A DNA stretch of 64,000 nucleotides, from contig NZ_JAMXAY010000024.1 of NCBI RefSeq assembly GCF_025460835.1, positions 347 to 64,346 on the forward strand, given 5' to 3'. A program made the translations under genes and the position numbers. Below are positions 3,111 through 36,269 of this stretch, piece after piece; positions within the stretch are counted from its first letter, which is position 1, and every line of letters begins with the position of its first letter. This DNA is from Parapedobacter soli. GTDB lineage: Bacteria > Bacteroidota > Bacteroidia > Sphingobacteriales > Sphingobacteriaceae. The notes beneath the pieces were generated by a model that was not told where the DNA came from, did not search any database, and worked only from the letters and a program-made list of their open reading frames with translations.

Positions 3111-4235
3111 ATGAGATTCATTGTATCTACTTCCATTTTATTAAAACAACTACAAGCCATCAGCGGAGCCTCAAGCAGTAGTACCGTACTGCCGATCTTG
3201 GAAAATTTCTTGTTTGAAATCAAGGACAATATATTGACCATCTCGGCTACCGATTTGCAAACCAGCATGGTTACCTCCCTGACTATCGAGGCCAAGGAAG
3301 AAGGACGCGTGGCCATGCCTTCCAAAATATTGATCGAGACGCTTAAGACGCTCCCCGACCAGCCAGTAGCTTTTTCTGTCGATACGGCTACCCTGGCTAT
3401 CGAAATCAGTGCTGGTGACGGTAAATACAAGCTAAGCGGCGAGAATGCCGACGATTTTCCGAAGATCCCCGTTGTTGACAATGCATCTGCGGTAACCCTA
3501 ACCGCCTCGGTACTGGCTGAAGCCATTAACAAAACGATATTTGCAGTGAGCAATGACGAGCTACGTCCAGCCATGTCGGGTGTGTTGGTACAGTTGGCGG
3601 AACAATCCGCCACCTTCGTCGCAACCGATGCCCACAAGCTCGTACGCTACCGCCGCAAAGATATCGGCACCGACAGCCCTACATCGTTGATTTTACCTAA
3701 GAAGGCACTATCGTTGTTGAAATCATCTTTGCCCATAGATGACTCTGCCGTCTCTATGGAATATAACAGCACCAATGCCTTTTTCAAGTTTGGCAACATA
3801 CACCTGATTTGCCGGCTCATCGATGAACGCTACCCCGATTATGAGGCTGTTATTCCGCAGGTCAACCCCAATAAACTGACACTCGATCGGCACATATTCC
3901 TCAACTCCTTACGCCGCGTTGTTATTTTTGCCAACAAGACCACACATCAGGTACGGCTGAAGATTTCGGGTAGCGAACTCCATATATCGGCGGAAGACCT
4001 CGATTTCTCCAACGAAGCACATGAGCGGCTGAGCTGCCAGTTTGAAGGTGAAGACATGGAAATCGGCTTCAATGCGAAGTTTTTGGTGGAGATGCTAACA
4101 AACCTCGATAGCGAGGAAGTGATTATCGAAATGAGCACCCCGAACCGGGCTGGGTTATTGATACCCGCCATATCGGAAGAAGACGAGGATATCCTGATGC
4201 TGGTCATGCCCGTCATGTTGAATAATATGGGATAA
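3111..4235 (+). CDS. dnaN: DNA polymerase III beta sliding clamp
   Basis: The 374-residue product is the ring-shaped processivity clamp that tethers DNA polymerase III to DNA; it acts as a homodimer in the cytoplasm. Three repeated clamp domains are visible: N-terminal (MRFIVSTSILLKQLQAISGA to about residue 120), central (ELRPAMSGVLVQL, ATDAHKLVRYRR) and C-terminal (ALLNNMG-type end, here VMLNNMG). The length is normal for the family. dnaA is not next to it; the predicted origin is about 27 kb to the right. It starts a rightward run with dedA five bases after its stop. Confidence 0.97.
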   Translation: MRFIVSTSILLKQLQAISGASSSSTVLPILENFLFEIKDNILTISATDLQTSMVTSLTIEAKEEGRVAMPSKILIETLKTLPDQPVAFSVDTATLAIEISAGDGKYKLSGENADDFPKIPVVDNASAVTLTASVLAEAINKTIFAVSNDELRPAMSGVLVQLAEQSATFVATDAHKLVRYRRKDIGTDSPTSLILPKKALSLLKSSLPIDDSAVSMEYNSTNAFFKFGNIHLICRLIDERYPDYEAVIPQVNPNKLTLDRHIFLNSLRRVVIFANKTTHQVRLKISGSELHISAEDLDFSNEAHERLSCQFEGEDMEIGFNAKFLVEMLTNLDSEEVIIEMSTPNRAGLLIPAISEEDEDILMLVMPVMLNNMG

Positions 4236-24830: not shown

Positions 24831-24841
24831 AGCGGGACGGC
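24809..24841 (-). terminator. Rho-independent terminator of the cold-shock gene
   Basis: Read leftward, an eight-pair stem (GCCGTCCC with GGGGCGGC, one G-T pair) with a nine-base loop is followed by eight T. It follows the csp stop by 31 bases and lies inside the 3' end of the convergent permease gene, so it serves the minus strand only. Confidence 0.88.
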
Positions 24842-24872
24842 AAAATACAATAAATATAGTGATAGGTAACCC

Positions 24873-25064
24873 TTAGATTACCTTAACATTTACCGCATTT
24901 AGTCCTTTTCTACCTTGTTCAACTTCATAAGAGACGTTGTCGTTCTCACGAATTTTGTCGATAAGGCCAGACGAATGAACGAAGATGTCGCTCTCACCTG
25001 AGTTAGGAACGATAAAACCAAAACCCTTGGTTTCATTGAAGAATTTTACTACTCCTTCTGCCAT
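24873..25064 (-). CDS. Cold-shock domain protein (CspA family)
   Basis: A 63-residue single cold-shock domain: RNA-binding motif RNP1 is KGFGFI and RNP2 is DIFVHSS. Such proteins bind single-stranded RNA and DNA and relax mRNA structure. The stop is 31 bases before a strong terminator and the -7 box is 30 bases upstream of the start, so it is a single-gene transcript. Confidence 0.95.
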   Translation of the reverse strand: MAEGVVKFFNETKGFGFIVPNSGESDIFVHSSGLIDKIRENDNVSYEVEQGRKGLNAVNVKVI

Positions 25065-25094
25065 TGTATTGAAAAATTAAAAAATATTAAAAAT

Positions 25095-25102
25095 CAAAGG
25101 TA
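25095..25102 (-). promoter_or_regulatory. -7 promoter box TACCTTTG for the cold-shock gene
   Basis: Exact TAnnTTTG on the minus strand with a TTTG 23 bases upstream, at the long end of the normal spacing. The short AT-rich leader (about 25-30 bases) differs from the long cold-responsive leader of E. coli cspA. Confidence 0.6.
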
Positions 25103-25168
25103 TACATATTTATTTGTAAATAAACCAAAAATATTACCTTTTGATAACCCTTCTTTGTTTCGTCCATT

Positions 25169-25198
25169 TGTAAATGGATTTTTTTCATTACTTTAGCA
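25169..25198 (+). promoter_or_regulatory. acnA promoter, TTTG-N18-TACTTTAG
   Basis: A -33 TTTG at 25169-25172 and TACTTTAG at 25191-25198 (one mismatch from TAnnTTTG) with 18 bases between. The leader to the ATG at 25283 would be about 78 bases. Confidence 0.55.
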
Positions 25199-25282
25199 CA
25201 TAACCCATTTTTCATTGTTATCAGAAAAAGATAGTATACTCATTGCTTTCCTCGTACGACAATAAAACACTAACTAAACGAT

Positions 25283-29054: not shown

Positions 29055-30050
29055 TTAGAGCCCAAATTTTGCAGAGATTTCCAACATCCGTTCTATAGGT
29101 TTCCTCGCTCGGGAGATTACATCCTCGGATAGTGTGATTTCCGGCAGTTCAAACTTCATGCAGTTGTATAATTTTTCCAATGTATTGAGCTTCATGTATG
29201 GACAGTCATTACAAGCACAGGCGTTATTCGGAGGTGCCGGTATAAATAGCTTGTTTGGGCTGGCCTTCTGCATCTGATGGATGATGCCGCTCTCTGTAGC
29301 AACAATAAAAACGTCAGCTTGTTGCTCTTTGGTATATTTCAGCAGGCCCGAAGTGGATCCGATATAATCTGCCGCATCCAAAATATGTTCCTCACACTCA
29401 GGGTGTGCTATAAATTTAGCTTCCGGATAATCCGATCGCAGCTGGTCGATGCGCTCCTGTGAGAATATTTCATGAACCATACATGCACCATTCCAAAGTA
29501 CCAAGTCACGGCCCGTTTTCTTCCGCACATAATCACCTAGATTTCTATCAGGCCCAAATATTATCTTCTGGTCGAGCGGCAAACTATCAACAATCTGGAC
29601 GGCGTTGCTAGAGGTACATACGATATCGGTGAGTGCTTTCAGCTCTGCCGTGCAGTTTACATACGTAATCGCTATGTGGTCCGGGTATTGCTCTTTGAAC
29701 TTGGCAAACAAATGAGGCGGACAGCTATCAGACAACGAACAACCGGCCTTTAGGTCGGGTAGAAGTACTTTCTTCTCCGGCGACAAAATTTTAGCCGTCT
29801 CCGCCATGAAATGCACACCGGCAAAGACGATTACGTCAGCTTCAGTCTTGGCAGCCTGCTGCGACAGACCCAAGCTATCACCGATATAATCAGCTATATC
29901 CTGTATTTCAGGCTCCTGGTAATAATGGGCGAGAAGAATAGCGTTCTTCTCCTTCTTAAGCCGGGTGATCTCTTCCACCAAATCCAATGAAGGATCGATA
30001 GGTTCATCTATATACCCCTTGTAGTCTAGTTCAGTTAGATATCCGTTCAT
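29055..30050 (-). CDS. nadA: Quinolinate synthase A
   Basis: A 331-residue enzyme that condenses iminoaspartate with dihydroxyacetone phosphate to quinolinate, the NAD precursor, using a [4Fe-4S] cluster. Cluster cysteines are in [19 protein letters not shown] and [14 protein letters not shown]. The ATG at 30050 (MNGYLTEL) fits because a -7 box lies eight bases further upstream, in the middle of the longer open frame. The partner nadB is divergent across the predicted origin, so the two NadAB subunits' genes flank it. Confidence 0.96.
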
Positions 30051-30057
30051 GATAATA

Positions 30058-30065
30058 CAAAGGTA
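30058..30065 (-). promoter_or_regulatory. -7 promoter box TACCTTTG for nadA
   Basis: Exact TAnnTTTG ending seven bases before the ATG at 30050; a leaderless or nearly leaderless nadA-thiL transcript is implied. No -33 box at the usual distance. Confidence 0.6.
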
Positions 30066-30369
30066 GGTAAACAAATCGATTTGATTTTTGATTTCCAACA
30101 CCCTCAATAAGTAATAAGAGATTTATATAAAAGATTTATTATTGTTTGTTAGTATGTTAGTTTTGTGAAGAAGAAGCCTACTTTTTATTTTGATTTTATA
30201 ATATTCATTATTTTTTAACATATTACTAACATTAAATAAAGGTGTTTTCATTGGTTACCAGTGCTTTTCATTTTAGGTGGAATTTGTAACTCACATGATT
30301 TTGTATAGTATTTATTCGATAGGATTTGTTAATATTGTATGGTATTTCTAGGTATTTCTAATGAAGGGT

Positions 30370-30378
30370 TGTGCATAA
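30370..30378 (-). promoter_or_regulatory. Putative DnaA box TTATGCACA
   Basis: Read on the minus strand, one mismatch from the DnaA consensus TTATCCACA. It lies in the predicted origin and faces the box at 30438-30446. Confidence 0.45.
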
Positions 30379-30437
30379 AAAATGAGAATTTGGCAATTCA
30401 TGAATTTATCATTTTTATTCAACCACTATTCGACAGG

Positions 30438-30446
30438 TTATTCACA
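30438..30446 (+). promoter_or_regulatory. Putative DnaA box TTATTCACA
   Basis: One mismatch from TTATCCACA, on the plus strand, 59 bases from the opposite box. About 50 bases before the nadB start. Confidence 0.5.
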
Positions 30447-30494
30447 GTATCACACGTAAAACCAAACAGTCAGTTTTAACCGTTTTGTTAATTT

Positions 30495-32081
30495 ATGCAG
30501 CAGGTAGATTTTTTAGTTATCGGATCGGGGATAGCTGGGTTGAGTTTTGCCCTGAAGGCCGCTTCACACGGCAAGGTGATGATCATTACCAAGTCGAATG
30601 AGGACGAATCCAATACGAAATATGCACAGGGCGGGGTAGCTGTGGTTGTGAATAAGTCTGACTCGTTTGAGAAGCATATAACTGATACTCTGATAGCTGG
30701 TGATGGATTGTGCGACAAAAAGGTTGTGGAAAACGTTGTTAGGGAAGGACCGGACCGGATACAGGAGATTATCAACTATGGTACCCATTTCGATAAGCGA
30801 ACAGATGGGGTATATGACTTGGCGCGAGAAGGGGGGCATTCCGAACACCGGGTTTTACATTACAAAGATATTACCGGGTTTGAGATAGAGCGGGTTTTGC
30901 TAAAGCGTGTCCATGAAAATCCGAATATAGAATTGCTTACCCACTATTTTGCGGTGGATTTGATTACCCAGCATCATTTGGGAGTGTTTGTTGATCGAAA
31001 CACGCCGGATATTACGTGCTATGGAGTTTATGCACTGAATACGGTGAACCATAACATAGAACGTATTTTAAGTAAAGTGACGGTTATGGCGTCTGGTGGG
31101 GCTGGACACGTTTATGCCACTACTACGAATCCGGTAATAGCTACAGGCGATGGTATTGCGATGGTATATAGGGCCAAAGGAAAAGTTCGTAACATGGAGT
31201 TTATGCAGTTCCATCCTACGGCACTCTATAATCCGGGTGAATATCCGGCTTTTCTGATTTCTGAGGCGGTGAGGGGCTTCGGAGGTATTCTCCGTAGGAA
31301 GAATGGCGAAGCGTTTATGGAGGAATACGACGAACGGGCGGGACTTGCACCCAGGGATATCGTAGCGCGGGCGATTGATACGGAAATGAAAAAGTCAGGG
31401 GACGAATTCGTTATGCTGGATATCACCCATCGGAAGAAAGCTGAAATATTGGCCCATTTCCCGAATATTTACGCTAAGTGTTTGTCAATAGGTATTGATT
31501 TGGCTCGAGATTACGTGCCGGTTACGCCGGCCGCGCACTACCTGTGCGGTGGTATTTTGGTAGACGAGCACGGCCGATCCTCTATTCGAAATCTTTACGC
31601 TTGTGGAGAATGCGCATCAACAGGTCTTCACGGTGCTAATAGACTGGCGTCCAATTCATTGTTGGAGGCTACCGTGTTTGCTCACCGGATTTATGCGGAT
31701 GCGGTATCCGTCGTGAGGAGCAATGTGGTGCCCACGTCAATGCCTGATTGGGACGAATCCAATACAGCGTTATCTAATGAGGATATACTGGTGACGCATA
31801 ATTTAAGGGAAACTCAGAAAGTGATGAGCGACTATGTCGGTATAGTCCGATCGGATTTCCGGCTGGAAAGGGCGATGCGACGTTTGGGTCTTTTATACGA
31901 TGAAACGGAGAGCTTCTATAAAAATACCCGGTTATCGGTTAAACTGTGTGAACTCAGGAATGTAATCCAAGTGGCGTATCTGGTGATAAAGTCGGCCATG
32001 AGCCGGAAAGAGAGCCGAGGACTGCATTATACTACAGATTATCCAGACCGTGCTAACGAGTTGGTAGATACCGTTTTTTAA
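30495..32081 (+). CDS. nadB: L-aspartate oxidase
   Basis: A 528-residue flavoenzyme that oxidises aspartate to iminoaspartate for NadA. FAD-binding VIGSGIAGLSFALKAA at the N-terminus, KYAQGGVAVV, and the substrate site region MQFHPTALY and THRKKAE, and a closing CGECASTGLHGANRLASNSLLE are typical of the succinate dehydrogenase/fumarate reductase flavoprotein family. The C-terminal helical domain is complete. It starts at the right edge of the predicted origin and is the first gene on the G-rich leading strand. Confidence 0.96.
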   Translation: MQQVDFLVIGSGIAGLSFALKAASHGKVMIITKSNEDESNTKYAQGGVAVVVNKSDSFEKHITDTLIAGDGLCDKKVVENVVREGPDRIQEIINYGTHFDKRTDGVYDLAREGGHSEHRVLHYKDITGFEIERVLLKRVHENPNIELLTHYFAVDLITQHHLGVFVDRNTPDITCYGVYALNTVNHNIERILSKVTVMASGGAGHVYATTTNPVIATGDGIAMVYRAKGKVRNMEFMQFHPTALYNPGEYPAFLISEAVRGFGGILRRKNGEAFMEEYDERAGLAPRDIVARAIDTEMKKSGDEFVMLDITHRKKAEILAHFPNIYAKCLSIGIDLARDYVPVTPAAHYLCGGILVDEHGRSSIRNLYACGECASTGLHGANRLASNSLLEATVFAHRIYADAVSVVRSNVVPTSMPDWDESNTALSNEDILVTHNLRETQKVMSDYVGIVRSDFRLERAMRRLGLLYDETESFYKNTRLSVKLCELRNVIQVAYLVIKSAMSRKESRGLHYTTDYPDRANELVDTVF

Positions 32082-34352: not shown

Positions 34353-36212
34353 TTAATTCAAATGTACCATTAAAACTGAAATATCCGAAGGTGAAACGCC
34401 GGAAATCCGGGAAGCTTGACCTAAAGTCCGAGGTTTTACGCGGATGAGCTTTTCGCGGGCCTCCTTAGACAACGAGACAAGCGTGTTGTAGTCGAAGTCC
34501 GGATTTATTTCCTGGTTTTCCATCCGTTTCATTTTCTCGATGATCTCCATTTCCTTATCAAAATAGCTCTCGTATTTGACTTGTATTTCCGCCTGTTCTA
34601 TGATTTCATCAGTTAGGTTTGCCGTGAGTCCAACAAGTTCCGAATCGGCCCGACTGAGGTGGCTCATGTGGACATGCGGACGGGTAAGGATATTAAACAA
34701 CCGTGTTTTTTGAGTTATGGGGCTTGACCCGAGTTCGTCCAGTATCGGATTCATTTTATCGGCACTTACAGAATGCTTACGAAGGTAATCAACCAACTGT
34801 GTTGCTGCAGCTACCTTGCTTTTTACTTTTTCCAGTCGGTCATCGCCAACCAGTCCAAGCTTATGGGCTAAGGGTGTAAGCCGCACGTCAGCATTATCTT
34901 GGCGGAGCAGCAAGCGGTGTTCGGCTCTTGACGTAAACATGCGGTAAGGTTCTTCAGTGCCTTTGGTAACAAGGTCGTCAATAAGAACGCCAATATACGA
35001 TTCCGATCGCTTTAAGATAAGCTCATGGCCGTCGTTTATCCGTTGGTGAGCATTTATGCCTGCGACCAGTCCCTGGCTTGCGGCTTCCTCGTATCCAGTG
35101 GTGCCGTTTATTTGTCCAGCGAAAAACAGGTGTTTTACCAAATGGGTTTCCAGGGTAAGGTCCAGCTGTAAAGGCGGGAAATAATCGTATTCGATAGCGT
35201 AGCCCGGGCGGTACATTTTGGCTTTCTCAAACCCCGGAATGAGTTGGAGCGCTTGTTGCTGGACGTCTTCGGGAAGCGATGTCGAAAAGCCATTGACATA
35301 TATTTCAACGGTTCTCCAGCCTTCCGGCTCAACAAATATCTGATGGCGGTCGCGTTCGGAAAAGCGATTGATTTTATCTTCTATAGAAGGGCAATACCGT
35401 GGACCGAGCCCTTGGATACGTCCGGAGAACATTGGTGATTTATCAAAGCCCTCTTTCAGTTTTTCGTGTACTTGTTGATTGGTATAGGTAATCCAGCAAC
35501 AACGCTGCTCGATTGGCAGGCTTACCTCTGTAAATGAAAAACTGCCGCGTTTTTCGTCGCCCCATTGTTCCTCCATGACGGAGTAGTTAAGACTTCTTCC
35601 GTCTACTCGGGGCGGTGTACCCGTTTTCATCCGGCCCGATTCGAAGCCGAGGCTTACCAACTGTTCGGTCAGACCAGTTGCCGCTTTCTCCCCTGTCCTT
35701 CCCCCACCGAATCGTTTTTCACCGACATGGATGATGCCGTTTAAGAACGTGCCGTTGGTGAGGATTACCGCATCGGCCGAGATACTGATTCCTAAAGAAG
35801 TGACGACTCCGCAGGCTCTGCCGTTGGTTACTTGAATAGCTTTTACGGTATCTTGCCAGATGTCGATATTGGGCAATGCTTCCAGTTGCAGGCGCCATTC
35901 TTCGGCAAACCGCATCCGGTCGTTTTGCGTGCGGGGGCTCCACATAGCGGGTCCCTTCGACTGGTTAAGCATCCGGAACTGGATGGTGGTTTTATCGGCA
36001 ATGATACCCGAATAGCCGCCCATGGCATCGATTTCACGGACAATCTGGCCTTTGGCTACGCCGCCCATGGCCGGATTACAGCTCATCTGGCCAATGGTAG
36101 CCATGTTCATGGTAATCAGAATGACGGAAGAGCCCATGTTGGCCGCAGCCGCGGCTGCTTCGCAACCCGCATGCCCCCCTCCTACTACGATAATATTGTA
36201 TTTATTGAACAT
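34353..36212 (-). CDS. mnmG: tRNA uridine-5-carboxymethylaminomethyl modification enzyme MnmG (GidA)
   Basis: A 619-residue FAD enzyme that, with MnmE, modifies U34 of several tRNAs. FAD-binding [19 protein letters not shown] at the N-terminus, [31 protein letters not shown] with TGTPP, and [16 protein letters not shown] are diagnostic. The C-terminal helical domain ([16 protein letters not shown]) is complete. mnmG lies near the origin in many bacteria, which agrees with the predicted oriC 4 kb away. A parS-like site sits 12-27 bases upstream of its start codon. Confidence 0.97.
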
Positions 36213-36223
36213 TTTCTTTGTTT

Positions 36224-36239
36224 TGTTCCACGTGGAACG
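36224..36239. promoter_or_regulatory. parS-type ParB binding site 1
   Basis: TGTTCCACGTGGAACG matches the bacterial parS consensus TGTTnCACGTGnAACA at all but the last base. It lies in the leader of mnmG, exactly 30 bases from site 2. Confidence 0.8.
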
Positions 36240-36253
36240 TTTCGAAAAAATGA

Positions 36254-36269
36254 TGTTCCACGTGGAACA
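36254..36269. promoter_or_regulatory. parS-type ParB binding site 2 (perfect palindrome)
   Basis: TGTTCCACGTGGAACA is a perfect 16-base palindrome identical to the common parS sequence. It ends two bases before the stop codon of the ABC-F gene. The centromere-like sites of chromosome segregation are usually near oriC. Confidence 0.88.

Follow-up and report, generated by a model that had tools for sequence, protein, structure and literature searches.

A predicted chromosomal replication origin in the nadA–nadB intergenic region of Parapedobacter soli

The question of where replication of the Parapedobacter soli chromosome begins was addressed at the intergenic region between nadA and nadB, which the initial annotation, made from the sequence alone, had taken for oriC. 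The draft assembly of this species comprises 5.17 Mb in 177 contigs, and the window, i.e. the whole stretch of 64,000 nucleotides that was analysed, corresponds to positions 347–64346 of contig C95. We consider it highly probable, judging from sequence, that this gap is the chromosomal replication origin. The proposal is supported by the computed evidence, namely the location by GC skew in relatives, a parS neighbourhood, conserved box-like columns, and instability of the DNA. The gap between the two divergent genes, given before as 429 b (30066–30494), was found to be nearly equal to this at 444 b, and dnaN, previously placed 27 kb away, lies at a distance of 26 kb. The region was annotated as follows:

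3111–4235, plus strand: dnaN (TIGR00663), 26 kb from the gap
29055–30050, minus strand: nadA, quinolinate synthase, left neighbour of the gap (PF02445, 2.8e-125; TIGR00550), with its ATG at 30050
30051–30494: predicted oriC, nadA–nadB intergenic region of 444 b, with the lowest GC content and stability of the window, the skew minimum, and a homologous gap in 64 loci
30105: cumulative G-C minimum of the window, from the computed skew
30124–30223: 100-b segment of lowest stability in the window by nearest-neighbour energies, candidate unwinding region
30495–32081, plus strand: nadB, L-aspartate oxidase, right neighbour of the gap (TIGR00551, NF006567)

The nearest named NadB proteins found were those of Parapedobacter koreensis (88% identity) and P. 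tibetensis (86% identity). No Rfam family matched 29900–30700 at E values of up to 1, and a riboswitch or other RNA in the gap was rejected on this basis.

The gap was confirmed as the most AT-rich stretch of the window: the 429-mer of lowest GC content starts at 30068 (GC 0.256; next lowest 0.312 at 24841), and the whole 444 b have a GC content of 0.26. The least stable windows of 50, 100 and 200 b, calculated from nearest-neighbour energies over the 64 kb, were all located in the gap, with a runner-up at about 25036–25237 close behind (100-b energy −107.6 vs. −104.7 in the gap). AT-rich, easily melted DNA, as it belongs to a bacterial oriC, is thus present in the gap. The second most AT-rich stretch of the window, 24831–25282, lies upstream of an aconitase gene and is almost as unstable as the presumed origin. 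The gap did not prove better conserved than this second intergenic stretch in the one usable comparison, with P. koreensis (identity 0.63 for the nadA–nadB gap, 0.75 for 24831–25282); the second relative was non-syntenic there.

The switch from C-rich to G-rich DNA described before at the gap was recovered as the cumulative minimum at 30105. A region of this kind may also be explained as a divergent promoter region of nadA and nadB only, kept for NAD regulation, with a skew turn that follows gene direction. The two genes are indeed divergent, a motif TANNTTTG, which we take to be a form of the Bacteroidota −7 motif, is located before nadA at 30065, and regulator sites could account for conserved blocks in the gap. 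Because divergent genes alone favour a local minimum in the gap between them, a sign change on the scale of the chromosome was regarded as the stronger evidence. The 177 contigs of the P. soli genome allow no ordering, and skew was therefore tested on relatives. Four of 24 single-contig relatives (G135, G044, G049 and G145) were fitted with a two-step model at 20 samples per chromosome, at least 6 samples being required per arm. In G044 and G049, nadA–nadB was located within the best origin interval of the two-step model (R2 0.70 and 0.78, respectively). The best interval of G135 contains nadA–nadB near its edge, with an R2 of 0.56 and competitors at 0.52 and 0.51. The weakly skewed chromosome of G145 disagreed, its best interval (2.72–2.92 Mb, R2 0.37) excluding nadA–nadB at 3.12 Mb and the interval that contains nadA–nadB scoring only 0.23. 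Contiguous tiling of 300 kb in G044 and 260 kb in G049 placed the minimum of G044 at 1471249, within the gap (1471221–1471702), and that of G049 at 4502082, inside nadA and 15 b past the nadA edge of the gap (4501550–4502067). Within the genus, a turn from C-rich to G-rich was seen near nadA–nadB on contig C5 of G007, noisy at half-coverage sampling. The minimum of genome-wide skew suggested earlier as a check was accordingly indicated at nadA–nadB in three of the four sampled chromosomes, which supports a GC-skew minimum at this place only indirectly, via relatives, and the turn in these three is chromosome-scale, which argues against a mere effect of gene direction.

Further evidence came from the right-hand side of the gap, where a short palindrome, which we take to be a form of parS, occurs twice:

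34353–36212, minus strand: mnmG (gidA; TIGR00136), directly beside the parS-like pair and about 4 kb from the gap
36225–36238: parS-like palindrome GTTCCACGTGGAAC, exact, 6 kb from the gap
36255–36268: second parS-like palindrome, an exact copy of GTTCCACGTGGAAC

With one mismatch allowed, the 5.17 Mb assembly contained no match to GTTCCACGTGGAAC other than these two exact copies, whereas the reversed pattern used as a control gave 3 matches at one mismatch and 0 exact. At two mismatches from GTTTCACGTGAAAC, 9 sites were counted in the genome vs. 12 for the control, and in the window the parS-like pattern at two mismatches gave 3 vs. 2.19 expected. The weight of the parS-like sites rests on their exactness and position, since looser patterns do not exceed the controls. 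A parS-like site, exact or with one mismatch, was present within 10 kb of nadB, at 5.7–9.0 kb from its start, in 24/24 single-contig relatives, which likewise speaks against a promoter function only; those of G014, G089, G124, G130 and G145 were among the matches listed for the GTTTCACGTGAAAC pattern, and several relatives carry extra one-mismatch sites elsewhere. In 23 of the 24 the site is on the nadB side; G115 is the exception, its pair (C1:9009–9063) being found on the side of nadA, a local rearrangement. All nine genus genomes (9/9) have the parS-like pair about 6 kb from nadB. A gene of the ParB family was found in 7/7 genomes searched, the P. soli copy being encoded on C57. Sites for parS usually lie near a bacterial oriC, and the predicted sites at 6 kb would agree with this.

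At class level, the exact palindrome occurred in 20/60 genomes, P. soli included, and the reversed control in 0/60. In each of the other 19 (19/19; L314–L333), a copy is located within about 300 b of mnmG, with more copies elsewhere in the genome of G176. A NadB match (E 1e-80) was obtained in 13 of these 19 and was on the contig of the palindrome in 0/13, a count that refers to assembled contigs of drafts only. We infer from these sequences a deep linkage of mnmG and parS, with mnmG–parS being the older neighbourhood and the nadA–nadB position a family trait. In E. coli and Y. pestis KIM+, oriC is described between gidA (mnmG) and mioC in the part of PMC10225481 consulted. The gap resembles this origin type in the proximity of mnmG (about 4 kb here) and in AT-rich DNA with putative DnaA sites, and differs from it in being flanked by nadA and nadB, with mnmG not adjacent.

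DnaA boxes were searched for with the exact pattern TTATNCACA. Two copies are present in the gap in inverted orientation, at 30370 (minus) and 30438 (plus), and a third at 30647 (minus) inside nadB. The window holds 7 copies vs. 2.32 expected, a number reached by 1/100 shuffles, and genome-wide the pattern is barely enriched (158 matches vs. 130 for a reversed-pattern control). At the genome density, Poisson probabilities were 9e-5 for two boxes in 444 b and 1e-7 for three in 286 b, each per place and uncorrected for the large number of places that a genome offers. Given the genome-wide frequency, two exact boxes in one gap are suggestive and no proof of an origin; a chance origin of three exact boxes within 286 b is unlikely. 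The box at 30647 was not counted as an origin element: a box is found at the same place in 38/64 loci, but on conserved residues, and perhaps it is retained through the residues that it encodes. Within one mismatch of TTATCCACA, the gap alone holds two boxes (30370 and 30438), one below the rule of at least three such boxes that the consulted part of PMC4403523 gives for oriC. The repeated AGATTTAT, put forward before as a further origin feature, was rejected, as its copies at 30119, 30132 and also 23283 (3 vs. 2.24 expected) are at chance level.

Conservation was examined in a survey of 121 loci, 56 of which, nearly all outside the family, were without a nadA match. Of the 65 loci having both genes, 64 show the divergent arrangement, the exception (L100) being a Clostridia MAG; three of the 64 carry no label more precise than Sphingobacteriales, Bacteroidetes or Chitinophagaceae. 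Exact TTATNCACA was present in 25/64 of the homologous gaps, two or more copies in 13/64, and the exact box is therefore not what selection keeps throughout. A first alignment comprised the gaps of 55 of the 64 loci, leaving out six gaps >700 b and three duplicates. A second comprised 72 of 82 loci with both genes, leaving out six gaps >730 b, the remainder being duplicates or without flank; L295 and L297 have no readable nadA. In six Sphingobacterium loci (L040, L041, L045, L050, L053 and L057), the gap measures 1.8–3.4 kb vs. the usual ~0.4–0.7 kb, and therefore something was inserted at the presumed origin there. Scoring for similarity to TTATNCACA was confined to columns present in ≥60% of the 72 gaps, and the box-like positions are given below with the number of aligned gaps in which the box is exact or ends in ACA:

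30133–30154, minus strand: conserved stretch TACTAACAAACAATAATAAATC after the left box doublet, from alignments and sequence, its likeness to a DnaA-trio being limited to the first CTA triplet (putative trio)
30155–30163, minus strand: degenerate DnaA-box position AAACTAACA, exact in 3/72, ACA end in 71/72
30164–30172, minus strand: DnaA-box-like TTCTTCACA with one mismatch to TTATNCACA, exact in 0/72, up to one mismatch in 27/72, ACA in 53/72
30212–30220, plus strand: DnaA-box-like TTTTTAACA, top-scoring box column in the gap, exact in 14/72, ACA in 72/72
30223–30231, plus strand: DnaA-box-like TTACTAACA, 11 b after the 30212 box, exact in 10/72, ACA in 55/72
30302–30310, minus strand: weak box-like position TACTATACA, exact in 0/72, ACA in 67/72
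30327–30335, minus strand: weak box-like position ATATTAACA, identical in 9/9 genus members, ACA in only 35/71 overall
30370–30378, minus strand: exact DnaA box TTATGCACA, exact in 2/72, ACA in 8/9 genus members and 25/72 overall, not family-wide
30427–30435, plus strand: weak box-like position TATTCGACA, preceding 30438 at a spacing of 11 b, exact in 0/71, ACA in 52/71
30438–30446, plus strand: exact DnaA box TTATTCACA, exact in 9/71, ACA in 70/71, a family-wide site
30647–30655, minus strand: exact DnaA box inside nadB

The columns nearest to TTATNCACA were 30212 (plus), 30164 (minus), 30155 (minus), 30438 (plus) and 30223 (plus), followed by the weaker 30327, 30302 and 30427. In the score of the best column, the real motif exceeded 150/150 permuted motifs, and in the score averaged over the five best columns it exceeded 149/150. 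The two inverted boxes noted earlier are thus both exact and inverted in P. soli, and 30438 is kept family-wide; 30370, though its ACA is shared by 8/9 in the genus, was discarded as one half of a conserved inverted pair. Conservation of boxes in relatives, anticipated in the same place, did not hold for exact boxes and did hold for a degenerate array. In the eight loci of genus g12, a box with up to one mismatch was found at the five best columns in 7, 7, 8, 7 and 8 of 8. The corresponding counts for loci outside g12 were 7/64 (30155), 20/64 (30164), 22/64 (30212), 18/64 (30223) and 13/63 (30438). What is conserved therefore appears to be an array of mostly degenerate box-like positions rather than exact boxes. 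As box-like columns that outscore permuted motifs also argue against it, a gap that serves as a promoter region and nothing else is very unlikely; promoter and oriC functions are compatible within one gap.

The preferred reading as oriC was further compared with the basal origin unwinding system, which consists, in the part of PMC6669920 consulted, of DnaA boxes and DnaA-trios, i.e. tandem 3′-GAT-5′ triplets by a box. The gap would be similar in that a doublet of box-like positions precedes a conserved stretch with CTA at its start, unstable DNA lying alongside. It differs from the system, as far as that part of the source describes it, in that the first triplet alone fits well and the doublet boxes are weak. 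The minus strand after 30155 reads TA CTA ACA AAC AAT AAT, with only the first triplet fitting a DnaA-trio.

The dnaA gene, rightly described before as absent near the gap, was found on a separate contig, C127. Location of dnaA adjacent to oriC is usual and not obligatory in bacteria, and this trait is lacking here. An origin at dnaA, as in many bacteria, with incidental features at nadA–nadB, would fit the 10/24 single-contig relatives, all of genus g12, in which dnaA lies 6–14 kb from nadB, but not the other 14, in which the distance is 379–1471 kb (1471 kb from the gap in G044, 701 kb in G049). In the same-genus G007, a single contig carries both genes, at a distance of about 356 kb from each other. 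The best skew intervals of G044, G049 and G135 are at nadA–nadB and not at dnaA, and 15.7 kb around the P. soli dnaA contain no exact DnaA box, so that an origin at dnaA is hardly credible. The DnaA proteins themselves were compared over the stretch GGRDHSTVIYACQTV, presumably the box-reading part of DnaA, and found to be identical in 24/24, 9 of these from genus g12. A DnaA that changes along with the boxes was rejected for this stretch, and since it is identical in all 24 proteins, the drift of the boxes is not explained by a change in it.

Three exact DnaA boxes were also found within 106 b on contig C13 (57066–57171, L246), upstream of nrdI and a ribonucleotide reductase gene. The E. coli DnaA acts as a transcription regulator at a ribonucleotide reductase gene, and the position of the C13 cluster suggests DnaA control of nucleotide supply. 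An origin at this or another box cluster has next to no probability, even though the places examined were the first 100 of 158 listed and more clusters could exist among the remainder, as the C13 boxes precede the above genes and have no parS-like site there. Two more exact boxes lie 16 b apart on C57 (19632–19656, L247), between a tRNA nucleotidyltransferase-like gene and a PRiA4_ORF3-like gene.

For an origin in the nadA–nadB gap, the following course may be envisaged. DnaA, made from its distant locus, would bind the array of mostly weak box positions, composed of the minus-strand doublet 30155 and 30164 and of the plus-strand pairs 30212/30223 and 30427/30438 with a spacing of 11 b within each. 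The unstable AT-rich DNA by the left doublet (about 30106–30223) would then melt and admit the helicase, and two forks would depart, one each way. ParB would act on the parS-like pair 6 kb rightward and segregate the duplicated origins. For the Sphingobacteriaceae as a whole, we give an even chance to a broader interpretation, in which the origin stayed locked to nadA–nadB and parS–mnmG while dnaA roamed, and in which the boxes outside g12 are mostly degenerate (TAACA or CAACA endings for CCACA) and read by a DnaA with a family-identical GGRDHSTVIYACQTV, so that one initiator would manage strong as well as weak boxes in shared columns. Because g12 keeps near-canonical boxes at these columns and the same DnaA recognition stretch, the family offers a natural test of origin function with weak boxes.

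An oriC far from dnaA is common in Bacteroidetes according to the consulted part of a paper on Prevotella intermedia, which cites DoriC (PMC4755523). The oriC of the first chromosome of P. intermedia OMA14 (PMC4755523) is, in that part, like the gap in its skew transition, predicted DnaA boxes and distant dnaA, whereas its flanking genes are unnamed there and the P. soli gap has few exact boxes and a conserved, mostly degenerate array. In the literature searched, nadA–nadB was not found named as an origin; DoriC was outside this search and may already list it. Location of oriC away from dnaA being known in Bacteroidetes, the nadA–nadB gap is a well-supported new example, and a likely origin is supplied for an entire bacterial family. 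In 12/24 single-contig relatives, no more than 10 kb separate the start of the sequence record from dnaA, and in 6/12 of these the likely origin is 382–1471 kb off, a mismatch that bears on replication-rate estimates from sequencing depth and on gene-dosage arguments. The single-contig records of G118 and G115 (L312 and L313) end inside nadB, beside the presumed origin.
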